This document shows positions 5,382-20,924 of a stretch of DNA of 28,969 bases, piece by piece. The position numbers were made by a program, and so were the translations under genes. Below the pieces are notes generated by a model. The model was not told where the DNA came from. It searched no databases and saw only the letters and a program-made list of their open reading frames with translations. How positions within the stretch are numbered: position 1 is the stretch's first letter; each line of letters begins with the position of its first letter. The stretch is from the IMG/VR virus record IMGVR_UViG_3300037189_030060, positions 1 to 28,969 of that record; one strand, written 5' to 3'. The DNA comes from a virus.

Positions 5382-6178
5382 TCAATCCACTGATTAAGAG
5401 TAAAAGGCATAAGTCTCTCCATAACTAGGAGACCATGTAGCTCATTAATAATCGTGGGCTCAAACCTAATACCTTTCGCAATTCCTTTATTTAGGAGAAT
5501 AGTATCTTTAAGTACATTAGCTACCATTTTTTCAGGAGGTCCCTCTAGGACAGCGAAGCAAACATTCTTATGTTCCTTCATATTTACTAGGTCAGGTTCC
5601 TGTAGCTTATCGAGTTCTTCTCGAAGAGCATTCTCTTTCACTTCTGGAATATTTATAGATTTTACCTTTTTAAAGGAGTGACCAAAATCTTTTTTCTTGT
5701 CAATGGTAATTTTCCAAATAGAATATTTTTTACTGCCAATCGAGTTAATTACTAGAAAGATCTCAGACTGTTCATGAATCATATCATTCATATAGAAGAA
5801 ATCAACATTATCTAACACATCTAATTGAATATCCATATAATCTAGGATTAGATTTAGGAAGACATAATTTGCATTTCTAAATATTTCAACTACTTCTGCC
5901 TTTTTTGCATAAATCTGTTTAAGGTCAGTTGTGATCTGCTTAATTCGATCGCTTTTCCAGACCTGTTGCATCTTAAAATCACGAAGATTTCCTTCTACTG
6001 CAAGCGTATTTAAGTTTAAGCTATGAAAAAAGATTTCATAGAAATAGTCTAGTGTGCCTTCTTCTAGGTCGTGACGATACTTTTGGCTTGCAGCCAAGAG
6101 AACATAGTCAAAATATTCAGGATCTAGATAAGATCCCTTAGTTATCCATAAAGGATCAAGTATTTGTTTCTTTTTCAA
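5378..6178 (-). CDS. Unrecognised 266-residue protein, TTG start
   Basis: The frame begins at TTG (6178). No ATG or GTG lies between that codon and the upstream in-frame stop, so TTG is the only sensible start for this length. I do not recognise the family. The protein is soluble-looking, mostly alpha/beta, Lys- and Glu-rich, with no signal or membrane segment. Residues about 80-100 could form a helix (IKQITTDLKQIYAKKAEV). It is the only minus-strand gene between two plus-strand structural blocks and has its own divergent AT-rich upstream region shared with the 6274 gene. Its 3' end overlaps the stop codon of the convergent fibre-associated gene, leaving no room for a terminator between them. 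Confidence 0.6.
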   Translation of the reverse strand: MKKKQILDPLWITKGSYLDPEYFDYVLLAASQKYRHDLEEGTLDYFYEIFFHSLNLNTLAVEGNLRDFKMQQVWKSDRIKQITTDLKQIYAKKAEVVEIFRNANYVFLNLILDYMDIQLDVLDNVDFFYMNDMIHEQSEIFLVINSIGSKKYSIWKITIDKKKDFGHSFKKVKSINIPEVKENALREELDKLQEPDLVNMKEHKNVCFAVLEGPPEKMVANVLKDTILLNKGIAKGIRFEPTIINELHGLLVMERLMPFTLNQWID

Positions 6179-6273
6179 GAGGTCTACTCTTTTTATTATT
6201 TATTTTACTCAAATGAAGATACTAGTTTAGCTCGAAAATTAAAATAAATAAACTAAATAAAGCATTTGCTTCA
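6179..6273. promoter_or_regulatory. Divergent AT-rich promoter region
   Basis: This 95-base spacer separates divergent genes. The word AAAATAAATAA occurs on both strands: on the plus strand from 6241, about 20 bases before the ATG at 6274, and on the minus strand (complement of roughly 6195-6206), about 17 bases before the TTG start. The word resembles the T4 late promoter box TATAAATA. Function is inferred from placement and recurrence at other gene-block starts; A/T bias is the main alternative explanation. Confidence 0.4.
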
Positions 6274-8418
6274 ATGGTTAAAACAACTGTAAAATTAATA
6301 ATTGATCCCCAGAATAATTCTTTGACTTTTAGTAAAAATTTTAGAATATTCTCAACCAGCGAACCTGTCACTGGGATCATTGAGTTTACTGATTTTATTG
6401 AAGATCTAATAATCGCTGTTCCCAATACTCTAAACTTAGCTAATCTTACCCGAAAGTTTAGGTATTCTAGAAATAGATTAGACTGGTCCCTATGGTATGT
6501 TGTTGCTCCTGGAAATCTAGGAGCGGCTGCTGGTATATTTCTAGATGAACATGATGAGTTCTATTTTGAGGTACAGTATGAATATGATGACGGTACGTCA
6601 AATGAACTCACAACACCCATTGAGATTAATGAAATTAAACTAAGATTTGAACAGGCTGCTCAAGTAGCAAACACATATACTCCGCAAACAATATGCGGCG
6701 ATGAGATGTGCACTTCCATCATACAGAATAGGGACCCTAGTTTTAGACCCTATAATGTGGATAGCGCAATTGGAATGTTCCAAGAGCTCTCATTCTTTAC
6801 AAACCAATTATATGGTCACCAAGTAGTATACTTTAGGACTCTTCCGGAATCAAACAGTGGTGACTATGTTTTTAAAGAATGGACTCTTTATAAAAATATC
6901 GATCGTAAATGTATTAAGGTGATGGTAAAGGACAATGCCTTTCCAGATAATATGCCAAAATTTACTGACTTTGGAATAGATTTCCAGTTACCCTTTGAAG
7001 TAGAGGTAGACCACAAATACTATCAATCTATTTTTGGAGTAAATTCTGAACCTAGAAAAAGGGACTTTTTATACTTTCCTCTACTCAACAGAATGTTTGA
7101 GATTCAGGGGTCTTATCTACATCGTGGATTTATGATGTCGCCTACCTTTTGGAAGATTCAACTTAAGAAATACAATCCAAATATTGATATGCTTCTTACT
7201 GATGATTCCCGAACTTTCTTGGATAACGTTATTACTGATGCCGACCAATTATTTGGAGAAGAGGTTAAAAAAGATATTAAGGATGCTACTATGCCAGCAC
7301 AGTATCAAAAGATTACAACTACTTTTGACTCTTCCCGAAAGGCACTCCATCCAGACTTGATACAGCGCCCTCTAAAATATACTTATAATTTTGCTCCGCT
7401 TATTGAAAACTATTATGATCTTGGCGCAATTCCACCAAGTGATTTAACCATTAATTTAACGAGCGATTCACCTGTGATCTCAACAACTCAACAGGTCTTT
7501 ACTCTTCCAAGTCTAGATAAAGTACCAGCTACGGCAAATGAAGTTATCCTAGCCTATCAAGATAGCGAGCTATACCTTACTTGGAAAAATGGAGGACTTG
7601 TTACCAATGATAAAAACGTCAAAGCTCTTAATACTCGATATGTTAGAGTAAGAGGGCCATTTGACTCTATTGAAAACCATGTTGGGACTAGTGATGAGGG
7701 TCGATACATTAGAGTTGAGGCATATCGTGATATTAGCCTAACGGATCAAAAGGGAGTACTGTACGATATATCTGGGCCAATTGATACTGCACAATTTAAA
7801 GTTAGAGACACAGCAGTTGTTTATACTGCTCAGCCTAAGTTTAATGTAACGACTGATAAAAATTTATCATTTACCTGTCTATTTAATGTACCGAGTTCAG
7901 CTGATACTATAAATTTCATAGATGGATATGATGACCTCACTTCAAGTGGAATTAGGGTGACCGCTGTATTTAATAGATATACGTCGACTCTACCTGAAGG
8001 AGATTTTACCCTAACAGTAAAGGTAAATAGTCTAGTTAAGACCTATATTATCAATAATTTTGTAAGTGAAGTATGGCATGCAATGGTGGTCTCAATGTCA
8101 AATGAGTTCCTACAATTTGGTGCATACGTATATAAAATAAAAGACGATCCGAGCGATATAATCAATCATAATGATTTTATTCGTATACTATCAAATACTT
8201 CTTCTTTTGTTCAGCAAACCTTTGATATTACTCAAAATTATACCCTGCCTAATTCTAAATTATTAATAACAAATATTCGATTATTTAATACTATGTTGAG
8301 GGAAGAGGAACATGATTTTATCCTAAGCCAGCAGTACTTAAAAGATGAGTCTATGCTAGTCCTAATTGATAATTGTAGACCTCAAACGAACCTTCCATAC
8401 ATCGCTAAAAACAGATAA
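6274..8418 (+). CDS. Virion structural (baseplate/tail) protein with LamG-like C-terminal domain
   Basis: A 714-residue protein at the head of the second plus-strand structural block. Residues about 130-300 form a compact region containing CGDEMC, an aromatic stretch, and RKRDFLYFPLLNRMFEIQG followed by FWKIQLKKYNPN, which looks like a virion protein core I cannot assign to a named T4 gene. Residues about 520-705 read as a beta-sandwich of the LamG/concanavalin-like type, ending with LLITNIRLFNTMLREEEHD, the usual last-strand pattern of such domains. No signal peptide or transmembrane segment is present. The start is the first ATG after the divergent spacer. A baseplate or tail role is inferred from neighbours (gp15-like and tube-like genes downstream). 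Confidence 0.65.
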   Translation: MVKTTVKLIIDPQNNSLTFSKNFRIFSTSEPVTGIIEFTDFIEDLIIAVPNTLNLANLTRKFRYSRNRLDWSLWYVVAPGNLGAAAGIFLDEHDEFYFEVQYEYDDGTSNELTTPIEINEIKLRFEQAAQVANTYTPQTICGDEMCTSIIQNRDPSFRPYNVDSAIGMFQELSFFTNQLYGHQVVYFRTLPESNSGDYVFKEWTLYKNIDRKCIKVMVKDNAFPDNMPKFTDFGIDFQLPFEVEVDHKYYQSIFGVNSEPRKRDFLYFPLLNRMFEIQGSYLHRGFMMSPTFWKIQLKKYNPNIDMLLTDDSRTFLDNVITDADQLFGEEVKKDIKDATMPAQYQKITTTFDSSRKALHPDLIQRPLKYTYNFAPLIENYYDLGAIPPSDLTINLTSDSPVISTTQQVFTLPSLDKVPATANEVILAYQDSELYLTWKNGGLVTNDKNVKALNTRYVRVRGPFDSIENHVGTSDEGRYIRVEAYRDISLTDQKGVLYDISGPIDTAQFKVRDTAVVYTAQPKFNVTTDKNLSFTCLFNVPSSADTINFIDGYDDLTSSGIRVTAVFNRYTSTLPEGDFTLTVKVNSLVKTYIINNFVSEVWHAMVVSMSNEFLQFGAYVYKIKDDPSDIINHNDFIRILSNTSSFVQQTFDITQNYTLPNSKLLITNIRLFNTMLREEEHDFILSQQYLKDESMLVLIDNCRPQTNLPYIAKNR

Positions 8419-11264: not shown

Positions 11265-11708
11265 TTGATCATTAATATTACAGGCCAGGCAGGATCTGGT
11301 AAAACGACTCTCTCTAATGAGATAGCTAAACTCGTAAAGAATCCCATCCTTATTGATGGAGACGAACTCAGAGAAATATTCGTAAATAAGGATTATAGCG
11401 AAGAGGGCAGGCGTAAAAATATTACAAATGCATATAATATTGCTCGGTTCCTCGACAAGAAAGGATTTACTCCAATTATTGCCCTAATCAGCCCATATCT
11501 AGATTTACGCGAAGAGCTTAAAGCACAAGCAAAGGTCGCAGAAATCTATTTAACTACTTCTCAAATCCGAGGTAGAGAAAAATTCTTTGCACCAAACTAT
11601 GTTGCACCACTTGAAGATTTCCTATCTGTAAATACTGATCAAGAGTTAGATACATGTATCGATTCTATTCTATTATACATAATCAAGACACATGGGAAAA
11701 AAGGTTAA
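11265..11708 (+). CDS. cysC: Short adenylylsulfate (APS) kinase-like protein
   Basis: A 147-residue P-loop kinase with a TTG start and no nearby Met alternative. Visible motifs match APS kinase: Walker A GQAGSGKTT (7-15), IDGDELR (30-36) for the conserved LDGDxxR, EGRRKNI (47-53) for the DRxENI motif, and ISPY (75-78) before LRE. APS kinase phosphorylates APS with ATP to make PAPS, the sulfate donor. The protein is shorter than bacterial CysC (about 200 residues): the KGLYKKARAGEI lid region is replaced by RGREKFFAPNYVAPLEDF. Similar short forms occur in marine phages as I recall. It overlaps the next gene by 17 bases. The sulfotransferase in the same operon supports PAPS synthesis; a different small-molecule kinase remains possible. 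Confidence 0.7.
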   Translation: MIINITGQAGSGKTTLSNEIAKLVKNPILIDGDELREIFVNKDYSEEGRRKNITNAYNIARFLDKKGFTPIIALISPYLDLREELKAQAKVAEIYLTTSQIRGREKFFAPNYVAPLEDFLSVNTDQELDTCIDSILLYIIKTHGKKG

Positions 11709-12144
11709 GATTAGATATAATCACAATGCGGGTGAAAGCCAGTTAAAGTGGAGAGTTGTAATTGATGGGCACGAACACCTTGCAGCAAATATTGATGTTC
11801 TTGTTCCAAGCGTGACAACTGACGATTTTATTGAAGGAGTTGGAAAAAAGTTCCATATTAGTTGTGAACCTGACCTAATTGTTTGGGAGGGGGATAAAGT
11901 TATCCTACGTGATAGTGCTAAGTGGATAAGTCATAAGCGACACCTTTTAAAGTCACTGACTTATAGGATTTACTCATCATGTATCACAGCACTAATTGCA
12001 TCCCTTATTTTAGGAGATAATCGGATCGGCTTCTCAATTGGGGTTGCTGATTTCTTAATTAAGATATTTACATACTATATTCACGAAAGAATCTGGTACC
12101 ATATTCCTTTTGGAATTCAAAAAGTAAAAAAAGAGAGACTATGA
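11692..12144 (+). CDS. DUF2061-type membrane protein with N-terminal accessory domain
   Basis: A 150-residue protein. Residues 1-80 form a soluble beta-rich domain (KVKIRYNHNAGESQLKWRV, then FIEGVGKKFHISCEPDLIVW) that I have seen beside phage CysC and nucleotidyltransferase genes but cannot name. Residues about 85-145 (KSLTYRIYSSCITALIASLI, then FSIGVADFLIKIFTYYIHER and IWYHIPFGI) match DUF2061, with two hydrophobic membrane spans and the characteristic YYxHERxW ending. DUF2061 proteins often neighbour sulfate-activation genes in bacteria. The start overlaps the kinase by 17 bases and the stop overlaps the next ATG (ATGA), implying translational coupling. A membrane anchor or partner for the sulfur enzymes is inferred. 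Confidence 0.65.
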   Translation: MGKKVKIRYNHNAGESQLKWRVVIDGHEHLAANIDVLVPSVTTDDFIEGVGKKFHISCEPDLIVWEGDKVILRDSAKWISHKRHLLKSLTYRIYSSCITALIASLILGDNRIGFSIGVADFLIKIFTYYIHERIWYHIPFGIQKVKKERL

Positions 12145-12569
12145 CGTATAATATGTTTATCGGTCGCTATCAAGCACCACACAAAGGTCACATGACCATC
12201 TTTAATGAATACTTAGAAAAGGGTTTACCTGTGCTAATTGCAATTAGAGACGTTGAACCCGATGCAAACAATCCATTTACTGCAAATGAAGTTTTACAAG
12301 TATGGGCACAAATCTATGCAAATAATCCTCTCGTTAAAATCATTATCATACCAGATATTGCTAGTGTAAACTATGGAAGAGGTGTTGGTTATGAAGTAAC
12401 TGAGATAAAGGTTAGCACGGCAATCGCTAATGTATCTGCAACTGAAATTAGACGACAAATAGTTTCTGGTGAAACAGATTGGAAATGGTTAGTCGATCCA
12501 AAAGCACATGATCTTCTTGAAAAATTATTAAAAAATAAACAAACCAATGGCAAAGAAACAAACAAGTAA
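12141..12569 (+). CDS. HxGH-type nucleotidyltransferase (cytidylyl/adenylyltransferase-like)
   Basis: A 142-residue protein with GRYQAPHKGH at 8-17, the HxGH nucleotide-binding signature, and VSATEIRR at about 98-105, the ISSTxIR motif that contacts the triphosphate. PDIASVNYGRGVGYEV lies between them. Such single-domain enzymes transfer AMP or CMP from a nucleoside triphosphate to a phosphate or acid group. The GRxQPFHxGH form is shared with NMN adenylyltransferases, so NAD metabolism is one option. The coupling with an APS-kinase-like gene raises the possibility that it activates a cassette substrate, perhaps sulfate or a sugar phosphate. The substrate cannot be read from the sequence. Starts in ATGA overlap with the DUF2061 gene. 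Confidence 0.65.
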   Translation: MTYNMFIGRYQAPHKGHMTIFNEYLEKGLPVLIAIRDVEPDANNPFTANEVLQVWAQIYANNPLVKIIIIPDIASVNYGRGVGYEVTEIKVSTAIANVSATEIRRQIVSGETDWKWLVDPKAHDLLEKLLKNKQTNGKETNK

Positions 12570-13437
12570 ATTTTCAGTATTCCACCTAGAGGGTGGTCTT
12601 GGAAAACATATCGCAGCAACGGCAGTTGCTAAGTGTATTAAAAATAATCATCCTGATCGCGAACTAATTATTGTTTGTGCATATCCTGAAATCTTCTTAA
12701 ACTTACCTTTTGTGGATAGAGTTTATAGAATCGGCGGAACGCCATACTTCTATAAAGATTTTATTGATGGAAAGGACAGCTTAATCTTTAAGCATGAACC
12801 TTATTTTACAAGCGAACATATCCATAAAGAGTTGCCTCTAATTGAAAACTGGTGTAAGTTATATAATTTAGAATTTTCAGGAGAATCTCCTGAATTAATA
12901 TTTAATATTCGTCAACAACAATATGGATTCAAGAAATGGAAGAGAGATCGACCGATTGCTGTAATCCAGACGAATGGCGGGCCTCTAACTGAACAGCCAT
13001 ATCTTTATTCATGGACTAGAGATATCCCTTCTCATATTTCAAATGAGGTAGTAGCATATCTTAATCAAAACTATCACGTTATTCAAATATGTAGAGCACC
13101 AGAGCAGGCTATTCCTGGAGCAGAGGCTATTTTTGAACCGATGTCAAACATGGAGTTATTATCACTGCTTCTTTTATCAGAAAAGAGGGTCCTAATCGAT
13201 TCAAGTATCCAACATGCAGCGGCTGCTCTAAACCTAAAATCCACAGTATTATGGGTAGGCACATCGCCTAAGATATTTGGATATGAATTACATAATAATA
13301 TTGTAGCTCAGCTTCCAAGCGAAGTTAAATTACCAGATAGTTATCTATTTGACTATAACTTTCATGGTGCAAATCATGAGTGCCCACTACTTGACCTAAA
13401 TATCTTTGACTCAGCTGAAATCTTAAATTCAATATAA
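12547..13437 (+). CDS. GT9-like (heptosyltransferase-type) glycosyltransferase
   Basis: A 296-residue protein with an N-terminal HLEGGLGKH loop (13-21), the glycine-rich start of GT-B folds, followed by a LIIVCAYPEIF strand and VDRVYRIG. The C-terminal half contains LIDSSIQHAAAAL (about 216-228) and VLWVGTSPKIFGYELHNN, matching the nucleotide-sugar site of GT9 (ADP-heptose:LPS heptosyltransferase-like) enzymes. It is shorter than typical cellular GT9 members (about 330-350), chiefly in the linker. The start overlaps the previous gene by 23 bases, and the stop shares a base with the next ATG (TAATG). Acceptor unknown: host surface glycan or a virion protein. Confidence 0.65.
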   Translation: MAKKQTSKFSVFHLEGGLGKHIAATAVAKCIKNNHPDRELIIVCAYPEIFLNLPFVDRVYRIGGTPYFYKDFIDGKDSLIFKHEPYFTSEHIHKELPLIENWCKLYNLEFSGESPELIFNIRQQQYGFKKWKRDRPIAVIQTNGGPLTEQPYLYSWTRDIPSHISNEVVAYLNQNYHVIQICRAPEQAIPGAEAIFEPMSNMELLSLLLLSEKRVLIDSSIQHAAAALNLKSTVLWVGTSPKIFGYELHNNIVAQLPSEVKLPDSYLFDYNFHGANHECPLLDLNIFDSAEILNSI

Positions 13438-14072
13438 TGGATTTTACGTATCGTCCAGTAAACATCAACGAGTATTTTGACAAGATCTTATACATTAACA
13501 TGGATAAGGATGTCTCCCGTAATCTAGGTATGATTCAGCAGTTTGAAAAGTTTGGAATTACTAATTTTCAAAGGATTGCAGGCAGCGACTTAATCGATTT
13601 GTCTGAGCCGATCACCTATCGTAACTTTATAAAGAACGATGAAAAGTATGTTAAGGGTCAGCTCGGTTGTAGAAGAGCACACCTTAATGCAGTCAAGTAT
13701 GCTAAGGTTCATGGATACAGCAGAGTCCTGATTCTAGAGGATGATATTGAATTCTTAGTAGATCCAAACGAACTTCTTACTATCAATCAAGAGATACTTA
13801 ATGATTGGGACATGCTCTACTTTGGTGGACTTGTTGAACCATTTTTTAGAAACCAAATAGTGTGTGCCCATGCATATGGAGTCTCTGCAAACCTATATGA
13901 TGATATTTTAGAGATGGGAGAACACTCTGGTATGGAAATCGACAACTTCTATGCTAAAGTAATTCAACACATGAGTTACAATCATACCTCAATAGGAAAG
14001 TATCGTATTCGAATAGTTCAGCCATTTAATCAAATAGTGCAAAATAAAAATTACGAATCCAACATATTATGA
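13437..14072 (+). CDS. GT25-like glycosyltransferase
   Basis: A 211-residue protein of the GT25 (LPS beta-galactosyltransferase) family. It has the N-terminal KILYINMDKDVSRNLGM strand-loop, with the later FQRIAGSDL, GQLGCRRAHLNAVKYA (about 74-89), and VLILEDDIEF with EDD at 101-103, the metal-binding acidic motif of the family. The C-terminus is short. GT25 members add a hexose to LPS or capsule, and related enzymes glycosylate collagen Hyl residues in eukaryotes. It is coupled to its neighbours by TAATG and ATGA overlaps. A role in sugar addition within this cassette is well supported; donor and acceptor are not visible. Confidence 0.7.
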   Translation: MDFTYRPVNINEYFDKILYINMDKDVSRNLGMIQQFEKFGITNFQRIAGSDLIDLSEPITYRNFIKNDEKYVKGQLGCRRAHLNAVKYAKVHGYSRVLILEDDIEFLVDPNELLTINQEILNDWDMLYFGGLVEPFFRNQIVCAHAYGVSANLYDDILEMGEHSGMEIDNFYAKVIQHMSYNHTSIGKYRIRIVQPFNQIVQNKNYESNIL

Positions 14073-14884
14073 AACAGTTATTCTTTCAATCCTCTCTACC
14101 TAGAGCCGGCTCAACTCTCCTACAAAACATTATTGGTCAGAATCCAGACTTCTATGTTACTCCTACTTCAGGTGTCCTAGAATTAGTCTATGCTGCCAGA
14201 AACAATTACACTAACTCTCCTGAGTTTAAAGCACAGGACTCATCCCTAATGCGATCTGGTTTTACTCAGTTCTGTCATGATGGAGTATTAGGATTCTTTA
14301 ATGGCGTAACTGATAAGCAGTATGTCCTAGATAAGAGCAGAGGTTGGGGAGTACACCATGGCTTCCTAAATTCGTTCTATCCTGAGCCTAAGATTATCTG
14401 TATGGTTAGGGATCTTAGAGGAATCTTTGCATCAATGGAGAAAAACTTTCGTAAGAATCAACACTTGGATTCAGGAATTGTAAATCATGCAAACATGACA
14501 GGTACTAGTACTGAAAAAAGAATAGATATTTGGGCTGCAGGTCAACCAGTAGGATTAGCTATTGAGCGACTACAACAAGTATTTAAGGAAGGAGTCGATA
14601 AAAAGATGCTCTTTATTAAATATGAAGACTTGGCAAAGAATCCTATACCAGAAATGAAGAAGATTTACGAGTATCTTAGTCTACCTTATTTTGATCATGA
14701 TTTTGATAATATAGAACAGATCACACAAGAAGACGATGCGGTGTATGGAATGTATGGAGATCACCAAATTCGTAAAAAGCTTGAACCTTTAAAAACTGAC
14801 TATAAAGAAGTATTGGGTCAAGGTGCCTGCAATTGGATTAAGACTAACTACAAGTGGTTCTATGACGAGTTTAAGTATTATTGA
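14069..14884 (+). CDS. PAPS-dependent sulfotransferase
   Basis: A 271-residue P-loop-like sulfotransferase. The 5'-phosphosulfate loop is LPRAGST (10-16), and the 3'-phosphate site is CMVRDLRGIFASMEKNF (about 112-128), with Arg and Ser in the expected positions. LFIKYEDLAKNP (about 190) is the third conserved strand, followed by a helix before the C-terminal acidic segment. Length is normal for the family. The enzyme would move sulfate from PAPS to a hydroxyl on a glycan or protein, using PAPS made by the APS-kinase-like gene upstream. It is the last gene of the cassette, and its stop overlaps the 3' end of the convergent gene by seven bases. Confidence 0.8.
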   Translation: MKQLFFQSSLPRAGSTLLQNIIGQNPDFYVTPTSGVLELVYAARNNYTNSPEFKAQDSSLMRSGFTQFCHDGVLGFFNGVTDKQYVLDKSRGWGVHHGFLNSFYPEPKIICMVRDLRGIFASMEKNFRKNQHLDSGIVNHANMTGTSTEKRIDIWAAGQPVGLAIERLQQVFKEGVDKKMLFIKYEDLAKNPIPEMKKIYEYLSLPYFDHDFDNIEQITQEDDAVYGMYGDHQIRKKLEPLKTDYKEVLGQGACNWIKTNYKWFYDEFKYY

Positions 14885-15357
14885 CGAGGACCTGGCTCGA
14901 TCTCTGTTCTAGCTTGAGTGTCAATATTTCCAACAAATGTAATCATCAAGTTTTCAAACTCTCCACTAATTTCTGAAAATGGAACCTTTACTAGTTTAGA
15001 ATTAGCTCGTCTAAGACTTGGTGGAGAGGCAAGTGCGTTTTTTTGATTGCCTAATCTAACAGTTACTGTAGTTGGAGTAAAATAGATTGATCCAAGGGTA
15101 GGTGTGCGCTCTTGTCCAATTATAGTTGCTACATATTGCTGAAGAGCTGAATAAACATCTAAGAAACCAAGTCTATCTATCCCTGCGCGTTCAGATATCA
15201 CAACTGATGTTGTATAAGTTACATCCCCTGCAATAACATACTTAAGTCTACCTAAATAGAGTGCTTGAGGTCTATGTGCAGGTCCTCTTTCGGCTAATTG
15301 AGCGGGCACCCTAACTGATATAATATTTAAACTGTCAAAATTTATAATTTCTGTCAT
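14878..15357 (-). CDS. Unrecognised 159-residue protein at the end of the fibre operon
   Basis: I do not recognise this family. The protein is beta-rich, with VRVPAQLAERGPAHRPQALY near the N-terminus and long amphipathic strands (YFTPTTVTVRLGNQ), and a Pro-terminated tail. There is no signal peptide or membrane segment. It is the last gene of the minus-strand fibre block, 17 bases below the 338-residue repeat fibre, so a fibre cap, accessory or assembly factor is plausible. The 17-base spacer includes AAAATAAGG but nothing convincing as a promoter. The 3' end overlaps the sulfotransferase stop by seven bases. Confidence 0.55.
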   Translation of the reverse strand: MTEIINFDSLNIISVRVPAQLAERGPAHRPQALYLGRLKYVIAGDVTYTTSVVISERAGIDRLGFLDVYSALQQYVATIIGQERTPTLGSIYFTPTTVTVRLGNQKNALASPPSLRRANSKLVKVPFSEISGEFENLMITFVGNIDTQARTEIEPGPRQ

Positions 15358-15374
15358 TTCCTAATCCTTATTTT

Positions 15375-16391
15375 TTATACAATACATAGTTTTCCGTGAT
15401 CACTCCATACCATTCCAGCACAGAGTCCAGCTGAAGTAGTTGGAATACACTTAATTGATAAACAGTTAACAAATGTTGTGCATGAAGTATCTGCTGTAAT
15501 GCCAGAACCGATTATAAAAGTACAGCTAAGTGAATTTGTATTATTACTGTCCCCTCCAAGTATTCCAGAATAATGTCCACTTGCTATATTACCATATCCT
15601 CCACTAACACTTGAATAACATCCACTAGTAGTATTACCAGATCCTCCACTAACCGTCGAGTAATTTCCACTTGCAGTATTGTTCCGGCCTCCGCCAACAG
15701 TTGATGGATAATATCCACTTGCAGTATTACTATATCCTCCACTAACAGTTGCATAATAGTATCCGCTTGCTGAGTTACCATATCCTCCACCAACAGTCGC
15801 ACTACAGTATCCGCTTGCTGAGTTACCATATCCTCCACCAACTGTTGCCTGATAACCAGAGGCAGTATTAAGTACTCCGCCAGAAACGGTAGAACCAATT
15901 CCGCTAGCACTATTACTATATCCTCCAGAAACAGTAGTTGAGATATCTATAGCTGAGTTAGTGTATCCTCCACTAACTGTTGAATAGTCAGATAGGGCTG
16001 TGTTATATGCTCCTCCACCAACTACTGAATAGTATCCACTTGAAGTATTTACATATCCTCCAGAAACAGTAGATAAGTCAAAGTTTACAGTATTATTATA
16101 TCCTCCTGAGATATTTGAGCCATATCCGCTAGCTGTGTTTGTGTAACCAAATACTGTTGAATAGTCTCCACTTGCAGTGTTACTTGTACTTATTCTATAT
16201 GTTGAGTATGTTCCTGAACCAGTATCGACTACTCTACTTTCCAGTAGTGTCACAGTTCCGCTTGAGTCCATTTTGGAAAGAGCACCGGCTGTGTCCAAGT
16301 TAAATCCAACAAAGTAACTACCTGCAGCGATTTGACTACAGTCAATTGCGGCAAATGATACTTTAGGCATTTCCATTCCTGATCCGTACAT
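15375..16391 (-). CDS. Tail fibre with YadA-like beta-roll repeats (short paralogue)
   Basis: The 338-residue product opens with VSFAAIDCSQIAAGSYFVGF and SSGTVTLLE, a phage tail-protein N-terminus that probably docks to the baseplate or partner fibre. Residues about 66-278 hold roughly 14 repeats of about 15 residues, of the form STVSGGYxNTASGxY, resembling the YadA-head left-handed beta-roll of trimeric adhesins. The last 60 residues (CTTFVNCLSIKCIPTTSAGL, then GMVWSDHGKLCIV) are shared with the C-terminus of the 1502-residue fibre upstream. Start is the ATG at 16391; Met5 and Met7 are possible alternatives. A trimeric receptor-binding or side fibre is inferred. Confidence 0.75.
   Translation of the reverse strand: MYGSGMEMPKVSFAAIDCSQIAAGSYFVGFNLDTAGALSKMDSSGTVTLLESRVVDTGSGTYSTYRISTSNTASGDYSTVFGYTNTASGYGSNISGGYNNTVNFDLSTVSGGYVNTSSGYYSVVGGGAYNTALSDYSTVSGGYTNSAIDISTTVSGGYSNSASGIGSTVSGGVLNTASGYQATVGGGYGNSASGYCSATVGGGYGNSASGYYYATVSGGYSNTASGYYPSTVGGGRNNTASGNYSTVSGGSGNTTSGCYSSVSGGYGNIASGHYSGILGGDSNNTNSLSCTFIIGSGITADTSCTTFVNCLSIKCIPTTSAGLCAGMVWSDHGKLCIV
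15560..16195 (-). repeat. Tandem 45-48-base coding repeats (about 14 units)
   Basis: In-frame repeats within the short fibre gene, phased with codons. On the plus strand the recurring core is TATCCTCCACCAACAGT joined to CCGCTTGCTGAGTTACC or variants. Each unit codes for one beta-roll turn. Confidence 0.8.
15758..15842 (-). repeat. Perfect 37-base direct repeat, 48-base period
   Basis: Bases 15758-15794 and 15806-15842 are identical over 37 bases (beginning AGTATCCGCTTGCTGAG), 48 bases apart. Other units of the array are far more diverged, so this pair looks like a recent unit duplication. Confidence 0.8.
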
Positions 16392-16415
16392 TTATTGTTC
16401 TTTATTTTTATTTAT
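16392..16415 (-). promoter_or_regulatory. AT-rich spacer with AAATAAATAAA element
   Basis: The 24-base gap between the two repeat fibres reads, on the minus strand, ATAAATAAAAATAAAG followed by AACAATAA and the ATG. It repeats the AAATAAATAAA word seen at other gene starts. It could be a promoter for the short fibre or merely an A-rich translation-initiation region of the Bacteroidota type. Confidence 0.3.
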
Positions 16416-19400
16416 TTAAGGTACGATCGTTAATATACCTAAATTACTCCAAACCATTCCGGAAATTCCAGGATTTGATGTAGGTATATTCATAATTGCT
16501 AGGCAGTTTACGTGGAATGTACATGCAGCAACTGATGTAATACTAACACCAAAAATTCCTGACCAGTCGCAGCTAGCAGTATTAGCATATCCTCCAAGTA
16601 TAGCTGCACTTGTTGCAGTTATTGAGTGATTACTACCTCCTCCAATAAATGAATTATTTCCAGATACAGTATTACGGTATCCTCCGCTGATTGTTGAATA
16701 ACATCCAGATACAGTAGTACACTTACCTCCACTGATTGTTGAATAATGTTGAGTTATACAATTACAACCACCACCACCGATGGAAGACTGTGTACCAAGT
16801 ACCGTATTATTTTCGCCGCCGCCAATGACTGAGCCTTTTCCACTTGTAGAATTATACTGACCTCCACCGATTGTTGATCTATAACAACTTGCTGTGTTAC
16901 CGTATCCTCCACCTATAGTTGAATTAAATGAGCATAGTCCAGTTATTAAATTGCAACAACCGCCTGCAATAGTAGCACCGAGCGAAAAGCTTCCGCATAT
17001 AGCATTGGGACCGCCGCCGCCAATAACTGAACTCGTTGCACTAGATACAATAATATTACCGCCGCCTCCGCCAATCGTTGATGCAACGCCAGTTGCTGTG
17101 TTACCGGTACCGCCACTAATATTTGAATAAGTACCACTGGCGGTGTTGCATTTACCTCCAACGACAGTTGAACAACCCCCACTTGCACTATTTATGTGCC
17201 CAGATAGGACTCCGCTGTATGAACCAGAAGAAGTATTGAGGCATCCGCCGCCAATTGTTGCATACGTATTGCTTGCTAAATTACACCTACCTCCACCGAG
17301 TATTGCATAAGCACCGCTTAGGGTAACAGTATTACACCATCCGCCACTGATTGTTGAATATGTTCCACATGAACAGTTATTAACTCCTCCACCGATAGTT
17401 GATGAATTTGCTCGTGCAAGATTACCAGAACCTCCACCGATGGTTGAAAATGAATCACATGCAATATTACTCTGGCCTCCACTAACTACTGCATATCCGT
17501 TCTTTACACAATTTAAGTTTCCTCCAGTTACAACTGCATAGATTCCACACGAGGTGTTAGTTGAACCAGAAAGTACACTACTTCCGGTAGTCGTTGCACA
17601 ATTGCGACATCCTCCAAGAATAGCTGAATCACAACCAGAAGAAGTATTACAGGCGCCTCCACTAACTATTGAATTTATCCCTGATGCAATATTATTACAC
17701 CCTCCGGAAATAGTTGAATAACTAAAACATGCAGTATTATTACGACCTCCACCGACCGTTGCATAAGTATTACTAGCAATATTACTAAGTCCACCACCGA
17801 CTGTTGCATATATAGCTGATGCAGTATTTGATTTACCACCGCTAATTGTTGAAATAAGTCCTGATGCAGCATTCAAGGTTCCTCCACCAATTGTTGCACA
17901 ATAATATGATGCAGTATTATTACAACCTCCGCCGACTATTGAACTTAGTCCAGATGCAATATTGCCGCGCCCTCCACCAATTGTTGCATACGTACCATTT
18001 GTGCAAATAGTATTTCCTTGACCTCCACTAATTGTTGCACCACTATTGCGTACCGCGTTATTACATCCTCCGCCAATGACAGAGCAGCTTGAATTACATA
18101 TAGTATTTTGATACCCGCCAGATATCGTTGATTTTACTGAACTTGTTGCAATTATATTAGTTTGTCCTCCGCTAATAGTAGACGTATCACTATTACTTGT
18201 TATAGTATTTATAATCCCTCCGCCGATAGTTGAAGCTCGAGTTCCATTTATACCATTACAAAATCCTCCACCTACTACACCTTCACAGCCGGCTGTATAA
18301 TTATAATATCCACCACCGATTGAATTGCATGTTGAGAAACTAATATTGTTAAGTCCTCCTGCAATTGTTGAGCCAGCGGATGAAGCACAAATCTTATTAT
18401 TTTGACCTCCACCAATTGATGAAAAACAGTCTGCTGTAGAGTTACATATGCCTCCAGCAATTACGGTATAGTTTCCACTTGCAGTATTACATTGACCTCC
18501 GCCAACGGTTGAAAAAGAAGTAGTAGCCGAATTTCCTTTTCCTCCACCGACAGTTGCACTACAGAATCCGCTTGCTACGTTACAATATCCTCCACTAACG
18601 GTTGCGAAATATCCGTTAGCAGTATTAAGTACTCCTCCAGAAACAGTTGAATGGTTACAATTCGCTGTGTTTCTTTGACCTCCACCTACTGTTGAAAAAA
18701 CATTAGATGAAATATTACATTGACCTCCACTGACAGTTGAATATTGTCCGCTTGCAGTATTAGTACATCCTCCGCTTATTGTTGAACAATCACCACTTGC
18801 AGTATTACACACACCTCCTCCTATAGTTGAACAATCACCACTTGCAGTATTACAACAACCTCCACTTACAGTTGAATAACCTCTACTTGCAGTATTACAA
18901 TATCCTCCACCGATCGTCGCATCTGTACACGATGCAGTATTATATCTACCTCCACCAATAATTGAATAGCATCCACTTGCAGTATTCAGTTGTCCGCCGC
19001 TAACGATTGATGCAGATCCACTTGCTGAATTTTGAAATCCTCCACTTACAGTTGAACGACATCCAGAAGCCTGATTACCAAGTGCTATACAGCTTCCACC
19101 TCCACCAGCAATAGTTGAATTCAATCCGCTTGCCACATTAAAGCTACCTCCACTGAGTGTTGAACACTGTCCACTCGCCGTGTTAGCATATCCTCCGCCT
19201 ACGGTTGATGTATATCCGCTTGATGTATTAGCATATCCTCCACTTATTGTAGAAAAGGAACATGTAGAATTATTATTTTTACCACCGCCAATCGTTGACA
19301 ACATAGCATTTGCCGTATTTGCACAACCGCCGGTGACTACTGAACAACTGCCTGAAGAATTATTATTTTTACCACTGCCGACAAATGAATAACTTGATGC

Positions 19401-20924
19401 AGTATTATAATAACCACCGCTTACTGTTGAATAATCAGACGCAGTATTATTTTTACCGCCTCCAACTATTGAATGACTAGAAGATGCTGTATTACACTCT
19501 CCTCCACTGACAGTTGAATATTGTCCGCTTGCAGTATTATTACATCCTCCGCTTATTGTTGAATATGCTCCACCTGTTGAATTACCGCCTCCTCCGCCTA
19601 TTGTTGATATATTGCCAATTGTTGAATTAGAAAAACCTCCACCAATCACGCCACCATTATTTGCAGTGTTATCTGCACCTCCAGCAACAGTAGCATGGCA
19701 GCCTTGCGCATTATTACATGTACCACCACTAACTGTTGAATACAAGCAAGTTGCATTATTATAATTACCGATTCTTACAGTCGATCCACTAGCTGATCCG
19801 ACCGCAATGACTCCGCCACCTCCGCCGGATCCACCATATTCTACGATATTAATTGGAGCAGTTCCGATAGTTAAATTAGTTAAAGCTGGACTCGTCGGAG
19901 TAGTAAAGTATAGTTTGCCGGCTTGAGTAGATCCTGTATTTGATACTAGGAAAAATCTAGTGTACCTGCTAAATGCACCGGCCCAGTTTTGAATTCTGCG
20001 TAATACCCAAGGTTGAGTGACCGATCCTTTATTAATGACTTGATAGTCACCATTTTGATATGCGAGAGGTCCGACTTGATCCTTTACTAATACTCTAGTA
20101 AATCCAGTAACGATACTTGCACTAGTCTCTGCGGTTAATCCGCCAATTGTGCCTAGTACTCCTGGAGAATTAGCAGTTAAGGTTGCTCCGTTTCCAGGTA
20201 AAGAAGTCAGGGTTGTTCCTGGAGCATACGTACATGCAGGTAGGGCAGTAGTTGTTGCAGTATCTACGAAAGCAATCTGAGGGGTCTGAATCTGATTTCC
20301 AGATATTATAAATATTAATTTATCTGTGCCTATTACTGGACTAGGGGTCTTCTGTATAAAATATTTACCTAGATAATTTGTTCCATCAGTTATGTTTACT
20401 TGTAATGGAAAAAGCTCACTAGATTCGTCAAATCCTGCAAGTCGAGTTAATACATAATTTGTAGATGGGCTACCAGTATCAGTAATCTCATAGAGTCCAT
20501 GAGTAAATTGTCGGTTGAGTGCTGGGTTAGTTGATGCATTTTCATACCATACTAATATTATACCACCATTAACTGGGGTATAGGTATAATCTATTTTTCC
20601 TGAAGAGGTCCCATCGCTTACTATACCCGGAGAAGTAGCAGTTAAGGTAGCTCCGACTCCATCATTAAGTGGGCCGTTATTGTACACTGGAGTGTATCGA
20701 AGTCCAGCACCAGTTGCAGCTTGAGCAAATGTTACTACTGCTGGCGGTTGATTAATATCTTCGCTTGTGACAAATGAGTGTTCAACACCAGCATCATCTA
20801 AATAATACCAATTGTTATCGTCCTTTGCATATATTTTACTATATCCTAAGTCAGGTTGTCCTGGTATAAAACTCACAGTTTTCTGTTGAGCAATACTATT
20901 ATTTTTCTTTCCTTGATATGCCAT
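16416..20924 (-). CDS. Giant Cys-rich tail fibre with about 70 YadA-like repeats
   Basis: A 1502-residue protein. Residues 1-50 contain a phage tail motif (SKIYAKDDNNWYYLDDAGVE). Residues about 55-365 carry two related phage fibre modules of the 'TALPACTY ... GATLTANSPG ... VLVKDQ ... YQVINKG' type (GATLTATSPG and GATLTANSPG mark the copies), followed by a GGSGGGGG hinge. Residues about 395-1455 comprise roughly 70 units by hand count, mostly 15 residues, consensus STISGGxCNTASGxY, matching YadA-type beta-roll repeats. More than 60 cysteines fall in two recurrent positions (GGxCN and GC/DC before the next S/A). The C-terminus matches the 338-residue paralogue (GMVWSNLGILTIV). A very long trimeric fibre or tail spike is inferred. 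Translation starts without a Shine-Dalgarno sequence. Confidence 0.8.
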   Translation of the reverse strand: MAYQGKKNNSIAQQKTVSFIPGQPDLGYSKIYAKDDNNWYYLDDAGVEHSFVTSEDINQPPAVVTFAQAATGAGLRYTPVYNNGPLNDGVGATLTATSPGIVSDGTSSGKIDYTYTPVNGGIILVWYENASTNPALNRQFTHGLYEITDTGSPSTNYVLTRLAGFDESSELFPLQVNITDGTNYLGKYFIQKTPSPVIGTDKLIFIISGNQIQTPQIAFVDTATTTALPACTYAPGTTLTSLPGNGATLTANSPGVLGTIGGLTAETSASIVTGFTRVLVKDQVGPLAYQNGDYQVINKGSVTQPWVLRRIQNWAGAFSRYTRFFLVSNTGSTQAGKLYFTTPTSPALTNLTIGTAPINIVEYGGSGGGGGVIAVGSASGSTVRIGNYNNATCLYSTVSGGTCNNAQGCHATVAGGADNTANNGGVIGGGFSNSTIGNISTIGGGGGNSTGGAYSTISGGCNNTASGQYSTVSGGECNTASSSHSIVGGGKNNTASDYSTVSGGYYNTASSYSFVGSGKNNNSSGSCSVVTGGCANTANAMLSTIGGGKNNNSTCSFSTISGGYANTSSGYTSTVGGGYANTASGQCSTLSGGSFNVASGLNSTIAGGGGSCIALGNQASGCRSTVSGGFQNSASGSASIVSGGQLNTASGCYSIIGGGRYNTASCTDATIGGGYCNTASRGYSTVSGGCCNTASGDCSTIGGGVCNTASGDCSTISGGCTNTASGQYSTVSGGQCNISSNVFSTVGGGQRNTANCNHSTVSGGVLNTANGYFATVSGGYCNVASGFCSATVGGGKGNSATTSFSTVGGGQCNTASGNYTVIAGGICNSTADCFSSIGGGQNNKICASSAGSTIAGGLNNISFSTCNSIGGGYYNYTAGCEGVVGGGFCNGINGTRASTIGGGIINTITSNSDTSTISGGQTNIIATSSVKSTISGGYQNTICNSSCSVIGGGCNNAVRNSGATISGGQGNTICTNGTYATIGGGRGNIASGLSSIVGGGCNNTASYYCATIGGGTLNAASGLISTISGGKSNTASAIYATVGGGLSNIASNTYATVGGGRNNTACFSYSTISGGCNNIASGINSIVSGGACNTSSGCDSAILGGCRNCATTTGSSVLSGSTNTSCGIYAVVTGGNLNCVKNGYAVVSGGQSNIACDSFSTIGGGSGNLARANSSTIGGGVNNCSCGTYSTISGGWCNTVTLSGAYAILGGGRCNLASNTYATIGGGCLNTSSGSYSGVLSGHINSASGGCSTVVGGKCNTASGTYSNISGGTGNTATGVASTIGGGGGNIIVSSATSSVIGGGGPNAICGSFSLGATIAGGCCNLITGLCSFNSTIGGGYGNTASCYRSTIGGGQYNSTSGKGSVIGGGENNTVLGTQSSIGGGGCNCITQHYSTISGGKCTTVSGCYSTISGGYRNTVSGNNSFIGGGSNHSITATSAAILGGYANTASCDWSGIFGVSITSVAACTFHVNCLAIMNIPTSNPGISGMVWSNLGILTIVP
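16545..19745 (-). repeat. Tandem coding repeat array, about 70 units of about 45 bases
   Basis: The array encodes the beta-roll of the giant fibre. Units are codon-phased, 42 to 54 bases long, most 45. On the plus strand the core is CCTCCACTAACAGTTGAATA plus a CTTGCAGTATTACA segment. Bases 18781-18809 and 18826-18854 are identical over 29 bases, 45 apart; the central units (about 18000-18400) are the most irregular. Such arrays can gain or lose units by recombination. Confidence 0.85.

Follow-up and report, generated by a model that had tools for sequence, protein, structure and literature searches.

The 28,969-base virus record IMGVR_UViG_3300037189_030060, called the window where the whole stretch of DNA analysed is meant, carries on its plus strand a cassette of six open reading frames (ORFs), abbreviated K, D, N, G9, G25 and S (Table 1). 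Their predicted products are an adenosine 5'-phosphosulfate (APS) kinase-like protein, a DUF2061 membrane protein, an HxGH nucleotidyltransferase, two glycosyltransferases and a sulfotransferase dependent on 3'-phosphoadenosine 5'-phosphosulfate (PAPS). A first-pass annotation of this DNA had described six ORFs joined by five overlaps, and all are present where it placed them, with overlaps of 17, 4 (ATGA), 23, 1 (TAATG) and 4 (ATGA) bases from K/D to G25/S. The cassette is not a chance assembly, because protein-level relatives are conserved in 80 viral loci with S 60-99% identical. Our analysis points to N as a putative ATP sulfurylase that would supply APS to the kinase.

Table 1. Positions of the cassette genes, their motifs and the adjoining fibre ORFs in the window (~, approximate).
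Feature	Position	Strand	Basis
K, APS kinase-like, 147 residues, TTG start	11265-11708	+	PF01583
K P-loop	~11283-11309	+	
K DGDxxR motif	~11355-11372	+	
D, ~80-residue N-terminal domain and DUF2061 membrane domain (residues 85-135)	11692-12144	+	PF09834
N, HxGH nucleotidyltransferase, 142 residues, proposed ATP sulfurylase	12141-12569	+	conserved residues, gene context, mutual exclusion
N GRYQAPHKGH motif	12162-12191	+	
N GRGVGY motif	12375-12392	+	
N VSATEIR motif	12432-12452	+	
G9, GT-B glycosyltransferase, predicted GT9 fold (heptosyltransferase/TibC-like)	12547-13437	+	AlphaFold and Foldseek
G25, GT25-family glycosyltransferase	13437-14072	+	PF01755, phrog_2835
S, predicted PAPS-dependent sulfotransferase	14069-14884	+	PF13469, PF00685
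S 5' phosphosulfate loop	~14096-14116	+	motif
S 3' phosphate-binding region	~14408-14434	+	motif
Repeat-rich fibre ORF, 338 residues, 11 GGxxN..S/T repeats, proposed acceptor	15375-16391	-	
Repeat-rich fibre ORF, 1502 residues, 51 repeats, proposed acceptor	16416-20924	-	

The family assignments made in that annotation for K, D, N, G25 and S are borne out by Pfam, PHROGs and NCBIfam models, whereas its GT9-like label for G9 finds no support in sequence and is recovered from the predicted fold. S matches Sulfotransfer_3 (PF13469; E = 6.4e-19, 69.5 bits against a cut-off of 27) and PF00685 (E = 7.8e-14), and both of its PAPS-binding motifs are invariant in 20 viral S proteins (P11, R12, G14, S15 and T16; R114 and S122). 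D matches DUF2061 (E = 4.5e-14, 53.1 bits against 23.1), and G25 matches Glyco_transf_25 (E = 2.1e-6, 28.2 bits against 24) and the glucosyltransferase family phrog_2835 (E = 4.6e-15). No Pfam sequence model, that of GT9 included, matches G9 at an E-value of 0.1; its AlphaFold model (predicted local distance difference test, pLDDT, 89.7) is matched by Foldseek to 3tov (the best, E = 1.6e-11), 1psw, WaaC and TibC, and would thus have the GT-B fold of the GT9 heptosyltransferases.

K matches the APS_kinase family (E = 4.5e-13, 49.9 bits against a Pfam curated cut-off of 21.1), and a profile built from 21 viral K proteins retrieves solved APS kinases (best E = 4e-20). The P-loop, DGDxxR and RxxN elements are in place, and R36, Y44, R49 and N52 are invariant among the 21 proteins; we take these four to be equivalent to R66, F75, R80 and N83 of the Penicillium chrysogenum enzyme, which bind APS. 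The APS-binding residues thus appear from the alignment to be retained in K even though its lid segment is short. A separate viral locus holds a full-length APS kinase (L181:5039-5983; PF01583, 3.5e-66) with a C-terminal HAD-like hydrolase domain, adjoining N.

N matches CTP_transf_like (PF01467; E = 4e-5, over the Pfam cut-off), and Pfam, alignment and Foldseek together place it in the HxGH nucleotidyltransferase superfamily by its HxGH and ISxTxIR motifs and Rossmann-like fold. Its top NCBIfam matches are archaeal nicotinamide mononucleotide (NMN) adenylyltransferases (NMNAT; E = 4.5e-11), at scores far under the cut-off (38 against 181.2 bits and 42.6 against 127 bits for the NadM models). 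The AlphaFold model of N (pLDDT 92) matches the folds of NMNAT and phosphopantetheine adenylyltransferase (PPAT), with predicted strands confined to the first half of the chain and loop and helices in the remainder. Thirteen residues are invariant in 56 N sequences (G8, R9, H14, G16, H17, R36, D72, G79, R80, G83, Y84, S99 and R104), and two of them, R36 and R80, might form part of a small pocket that binds an anion, sulfate for example. To our knowledge the ATP sulfurylases in general use fall into just two unrelated families, Sat and CysDN. Pfam detects no PF01747 (Sat-type) domain in N, for which NCBIfam gives a weak match to a fused Sat/kinase model (E = 0.06), and detects neither a CysD PP-loop nor a CysN GTPase domain in any of the six genes. 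We therefore rejected the idea that N is an ATP sulfurylase by direct homology, given the missing PF01747 match and the lack of any ATP sulfurylase among the 50 Foldseek matches listed.

The assignment of N as a putative ATP sulfurylase draws instead on gene context and on mutual exclusion with Sat and CysD. Six genomes of marine Flavobacteriales (G007, G009, G010, G012, G015 and G016) each have 9-12 Sulfotransfer_3 matches and an APS kinase, and have no Sat, CysD or CysH; therefore, without N, their APS kinase would have no recognised source of APS. Across 198 Flavobacteriales genomes N occurs in 6, all with sulfotransferases, and CysD in 129, with an overlap of zero (Fisher p = 0.0015; p = 0.0001 among sulfotransferase-bearing genomes only). 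In the phylum of genome G025 (58 genomes), N is present in 33, Sat in 8 and CysD in 10, again with zero overlap (p = 1e-9), and exactly one of the three is found in 48 of the 50 genomes having a match to PF01507 (CysD or reductase). In this phylum CysD was assigned by the length of the frame and the span of the match, and a check with CysD and CysN models covered one genome; Sat and APS reductase were likewise checked by model in one genome that has Sat, and APS reductase in one that has N. A Sat subclade of the phylum has the order permease, Sat, APS reductase, and in one N genome the permease adjoins the reductase with no Sat between. This distribution of N, Sat and CysD is the pattern of non-orthologous replacement.

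The proposed N family, of about 110-150 residues, occurs in phages, many bacterial phyla, DPANN and haloarchaea. Among cellular contigs, 78 carry N, and they come from Flavobacteriales, Chitinophagaceae, Marinimicrobia, Nitrospira, Dadabacteria, Omnitrophota, Woesearchaeota and others, and K lies near N, or is fused before or after it, in 62 of these 78 loci. The neighbouring kinase in Flavobacteriales clears the NCBI apsK cut-off (270 against 138.7 bits). Other neighbours of N include Sulfotransfer_5 in Marinimicrobia, Sulfotransfer_3 in Omnitrophota and a CysQ-like Inositol_P protein in Flavobacteriales, and a Nitrospira contig (L089) has the order sulfite reductase, APS reductase, N, with the APS reductase clearing the cut-off of its model, TIGR02055. 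In cultured haloarchaea, all four plasmid regions read have a sulfotransferase immediately upstream of a K-N fusion annotated as cysC; a YqcI/YcgG family gene lies just downstream of the fusion in the same four regions (L167, L168, L169 and L172). At the genome level, 50 N-bearing genomes comprise 49 with an APS kinase, 42 with Sulfotransfer_3 (against 2 of 14 control genomes) and 8 with Sat.

The six proteins were mapped onto each of the 80 IMG/VR loci that define the viral S survey, of which 54 are well flanked, with at least 3.5 kb on either side of S. In most of the 80, G9 adjoins S, and K, N and D behave as a second group, occurring together in 27 of the 54 well-flanked loci, not at all in 25 and in part in 2. 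The commonest order, G9-S-K-N-D, is found in 27 of the 80; the order in the window, K-D-N-G9-G25-S, is shared only with its nearest relatives L001 and L006, the only loci with the full set together. G25 adjoins S only in the closest relatives (L001-L004, L006 and L007), three of which (L002-L004) have G9-G25-S without K, D or N. Treating the six genes as one fixed unit is thus at odds with these loci, and we rejected a fixed six-gene operon: the order is not conserved and modules recombine. For the same reason gene order carries no information on the pathway, which had been read from it. The genes are scattered in related phages as far as the six-gene order is concerned, and are not scattered within K-N-D or G9-S. 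In L039, K is fused to N. In L007 an ORF of 115 residues (6136-6483) begins as K and ends as N owing to a deletion, and G9, G25 and S are kept; this virus has lost the PAPS module.

A separate viral scan with N yielded at least 435 relatives, and among the best 80 of these K is near N in 67, D in 52 and S in 15. Other viral N loci are located among sugar-nucleotide genes. One K-N fusion (L082:5584-6324), in Stenotrophomonas phage Bhz60, lies near NADAR, cysteine dioxygenase and DNA methyltransferase genes, with no annotated sulfotransferase nearby.

We suggest that the cassette forms a sulfation system complete in itself and made of two modules, K/N/D and G9/S, the latter joined here by G25. 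N would transfer AMP from ATP onto sulfate to give APS, a reduced NMNAT-like enzyme having taken over the job of Sat or CysDN by non-orthologous replacement, and K would add a phosphate to the 3' position of APS, yielding PAPS. The small membrane protein D may assist this first module by supplying sulfate or as a membrane anchor. G9 and S, together with G25 in this cassette, would build a short glycan and sulfate it with PAPS, the likeliest acceptor being the neighbouring repeat-rich tail fibre. We put the probability that N is an ATP sulfurylase at roughly 0.8, and consider it likely that N and K make PAPS that serves S, with catalytic activities predicted from families and context. The earlier idea that PAPS is made and used within one gene set holds up in phage, bacterial and archaeal neighbourhoods, but it overlooked N: K alone would be unable to make PAPS from sulfate, because an APS-forming enzyme, probably N, is needed first.

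Several observations weigh against this reading. In both sequence and fold, N is nearest to NMN adenylyltransferase and PPAT rather than to any ATP sulfurylase. K scores only 51.6 bits against the NCBI apsK model, under its 138.7 cut-off, with a match that stops at residue 98, and lacks the full lid of an APS kinase. Exclusion is not universal, since Sat is present alongside N in four Nitrospira and four other genomes, and N-bearing G027 and G050 also have CysD- and CysN-like genes; moreover, the genomes counted are related and mostly incomplete metagenome-assembled genomes, so that the p-values overstate independence. Among viruses, no S is recognised within 6 kb of N in 65 of the best 80 N loci, and about half of the viral S loci have no K, N or D nearby, N lying elsewhere on 6 of 22 such contigs.

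Two other functions for N can be set against these data. N might be an NMN, nicotinate or other cofactor adenylyltransferase of nicotinamide adenine dinucleotide (NAD) salvage, its kinase neighbourhood being incidental; the best solved-structure and fold matches to archaeal NMNAT, the shared motifs and the NADAR gene adjoining the K-N fusion of the Stenotrophomonas phage all fit this. We regard it as very improbable, given scores far below the NMNAT cut-offs and a chain whose strands end in the first half and give way to a distinct conserved GRGVGY loop, and it leaves unexplained the exclusion with Sat and CysD, the APS-reductase cluster and the links to sulfotransferases and DUF2061. It is also improbable that K and N activate a substrate other than sulfate while S draws on host PAPS. 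A CysC-like kinase with another substrate does exist, the cytidine diphosphoramidate kinase of the Campylobacter capsule, and the shortened lid and the many N loci without a recognised S nearby count in favour of this reading. Against it, a canonical APS kinase partners N in many cells, one phylum has N and APS reductase without Sat or CysD, and a sulfotransferase adjoins N in haloarchaea, Omnitrophota and Marinimicrobia.

The product of the proposed ATP sulfurylase pathway could be placed on the virion or on the host. Near the cassette lie baseplate-wedge, terminase and repeat-fibre genes, and the genes of the fibre region (14878-20924, minus strand) are rich in GGxxNTASG-type repeats. A repeat fibre is found no more than 2.5 kb from the G9/S block in 35 of the 49 well-flanked viral loci that have G9. 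The corresponding counts are 0 of 6 for loci lacking G9, 1 of 29 for viral N loci lacking S and 0 of 78 for cellular loci. In the window the fibre ORFs come directly after S but on the other strand, and in other loci they lie upstream on the same strand; we favour the fibre as acceptor because its adjacency to G9/S is kept across this rearrangement. Of the two destinations put forward in the first-pass annotation, host surface or virion fibre, this adjacency favours the latter, and we lean slightly towards the repeat-rich tail fibre of the virion as the acceptor; the viruses concerned share descent and the argument is one of adjacency. Alternatively, PAPS and S may act as proposed and the sulfated glycan be placed on host lipopolysaccharide (LPS) or capsule, for superinfection exclusion or receptor change. 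In its predicted fold G9 resembles LPS heptosyltransferases, GT25 is a family of LPS enzymes and sugar-nucleotide genes surround N at other viral loci; we nevertheless consider this destination unlikely, given the persistence of G9 and S beside the fibre and the inclusion in the GT9 fold of TibC, an autotransporter heptosyltransferase that glycosylates a repeat adhesin.

DUF2061 also belongs to sulfate-activation clusters beyond the phage K-N neighbourhoods. Chitinophagaceae have D fused to K, and two Mesorhizobium nod plasmids have the order sulfotransferase, DUF2061, cysD, cysN downstream of nod genes. In Microvirga lotononidis (L261:1438-5207) the end of a Sulfotransfer_3 gene, a K-N fusion, CysD and a CysN-DUF2061 fusion stand in a row, and this N has lost R80 and R104, which are invariant elsewhere; loss of these residues beside CysDN is a single case that fits redundancy, and the locus offers a contrast made by nature for judging what N does. 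The combined proposal, in which N is a third ATP sulfurylase family, the phage sulfates its own tail-fibre glycan and DUF2061 is a sulfation-linked membrane protein, is accordingly broader and is put forward tentatively.

Searches of the open-access literature, with subscription papers outside their reach, turned up no report of a new ATP sulfurylase, a DUF2061 function or phage virion sulfation. If true, a third ATP sulfurylase would fill a gap in sulfate metabolism in many uncultured bacteria and archaea that seem unable to activate sulfate, database names such as 'cytidylyltransferase-like' would be corrected and DUF2061 would gain a pathway; in phages, it would imply that the virus makes PAPS and probably has sulfated virions.

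The phage system is of the same kind as NodP/NodQ/NodH, which sulfate rhizobial Nod factors, with a probably undescribed type of ATP sulfurylase. Both pair a sulfotransferase with dedicated ATP sulfurylase and APS kinase, with DUF2061 inside the Mesorhizobium cluster, but rhizobia form APS with CysD/CysN and the phage apparently with N, and the rhizobial acceptor is a chitooligosaccharide where that of the phage is probably a fibre glycan. PAPS synthases (PAPSS; Sat-APS kinase fusions) likewise perform the steps from ATP through APS to PAPS with neighbouring or fused domains, whereas the putative APS-forming part of the phage type is a 110-150-residue NMNAT-like protein with no PF01747 match. 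Archaeal NadM, the best fold match, shares with N the HxGH fold and the GRxQPxHxGH and ISxTxIR motifs; N is shorter and has the invariant GRxxGY loop. No close named phage relatives were found at the DNA level, and a search of the whole window found no RNA families. The cyanophage sulfotransferases of S-SKS1, S-SRM01 and S-SCSM1 belong to the same family as S at about 26-30% identity, and S-SKS1, the only one of the three whose region was read, has no annotated K, N or D within roughly 4 kb of the sulfotransferase. TibC and other autotransporter heptosyltransferases have the GT9 fold in common with G9 and act on a repeat adhesin comparable to the fibre beside it, but are only about 13-15% identical to G9, which is coupled to a sulfotransferase.

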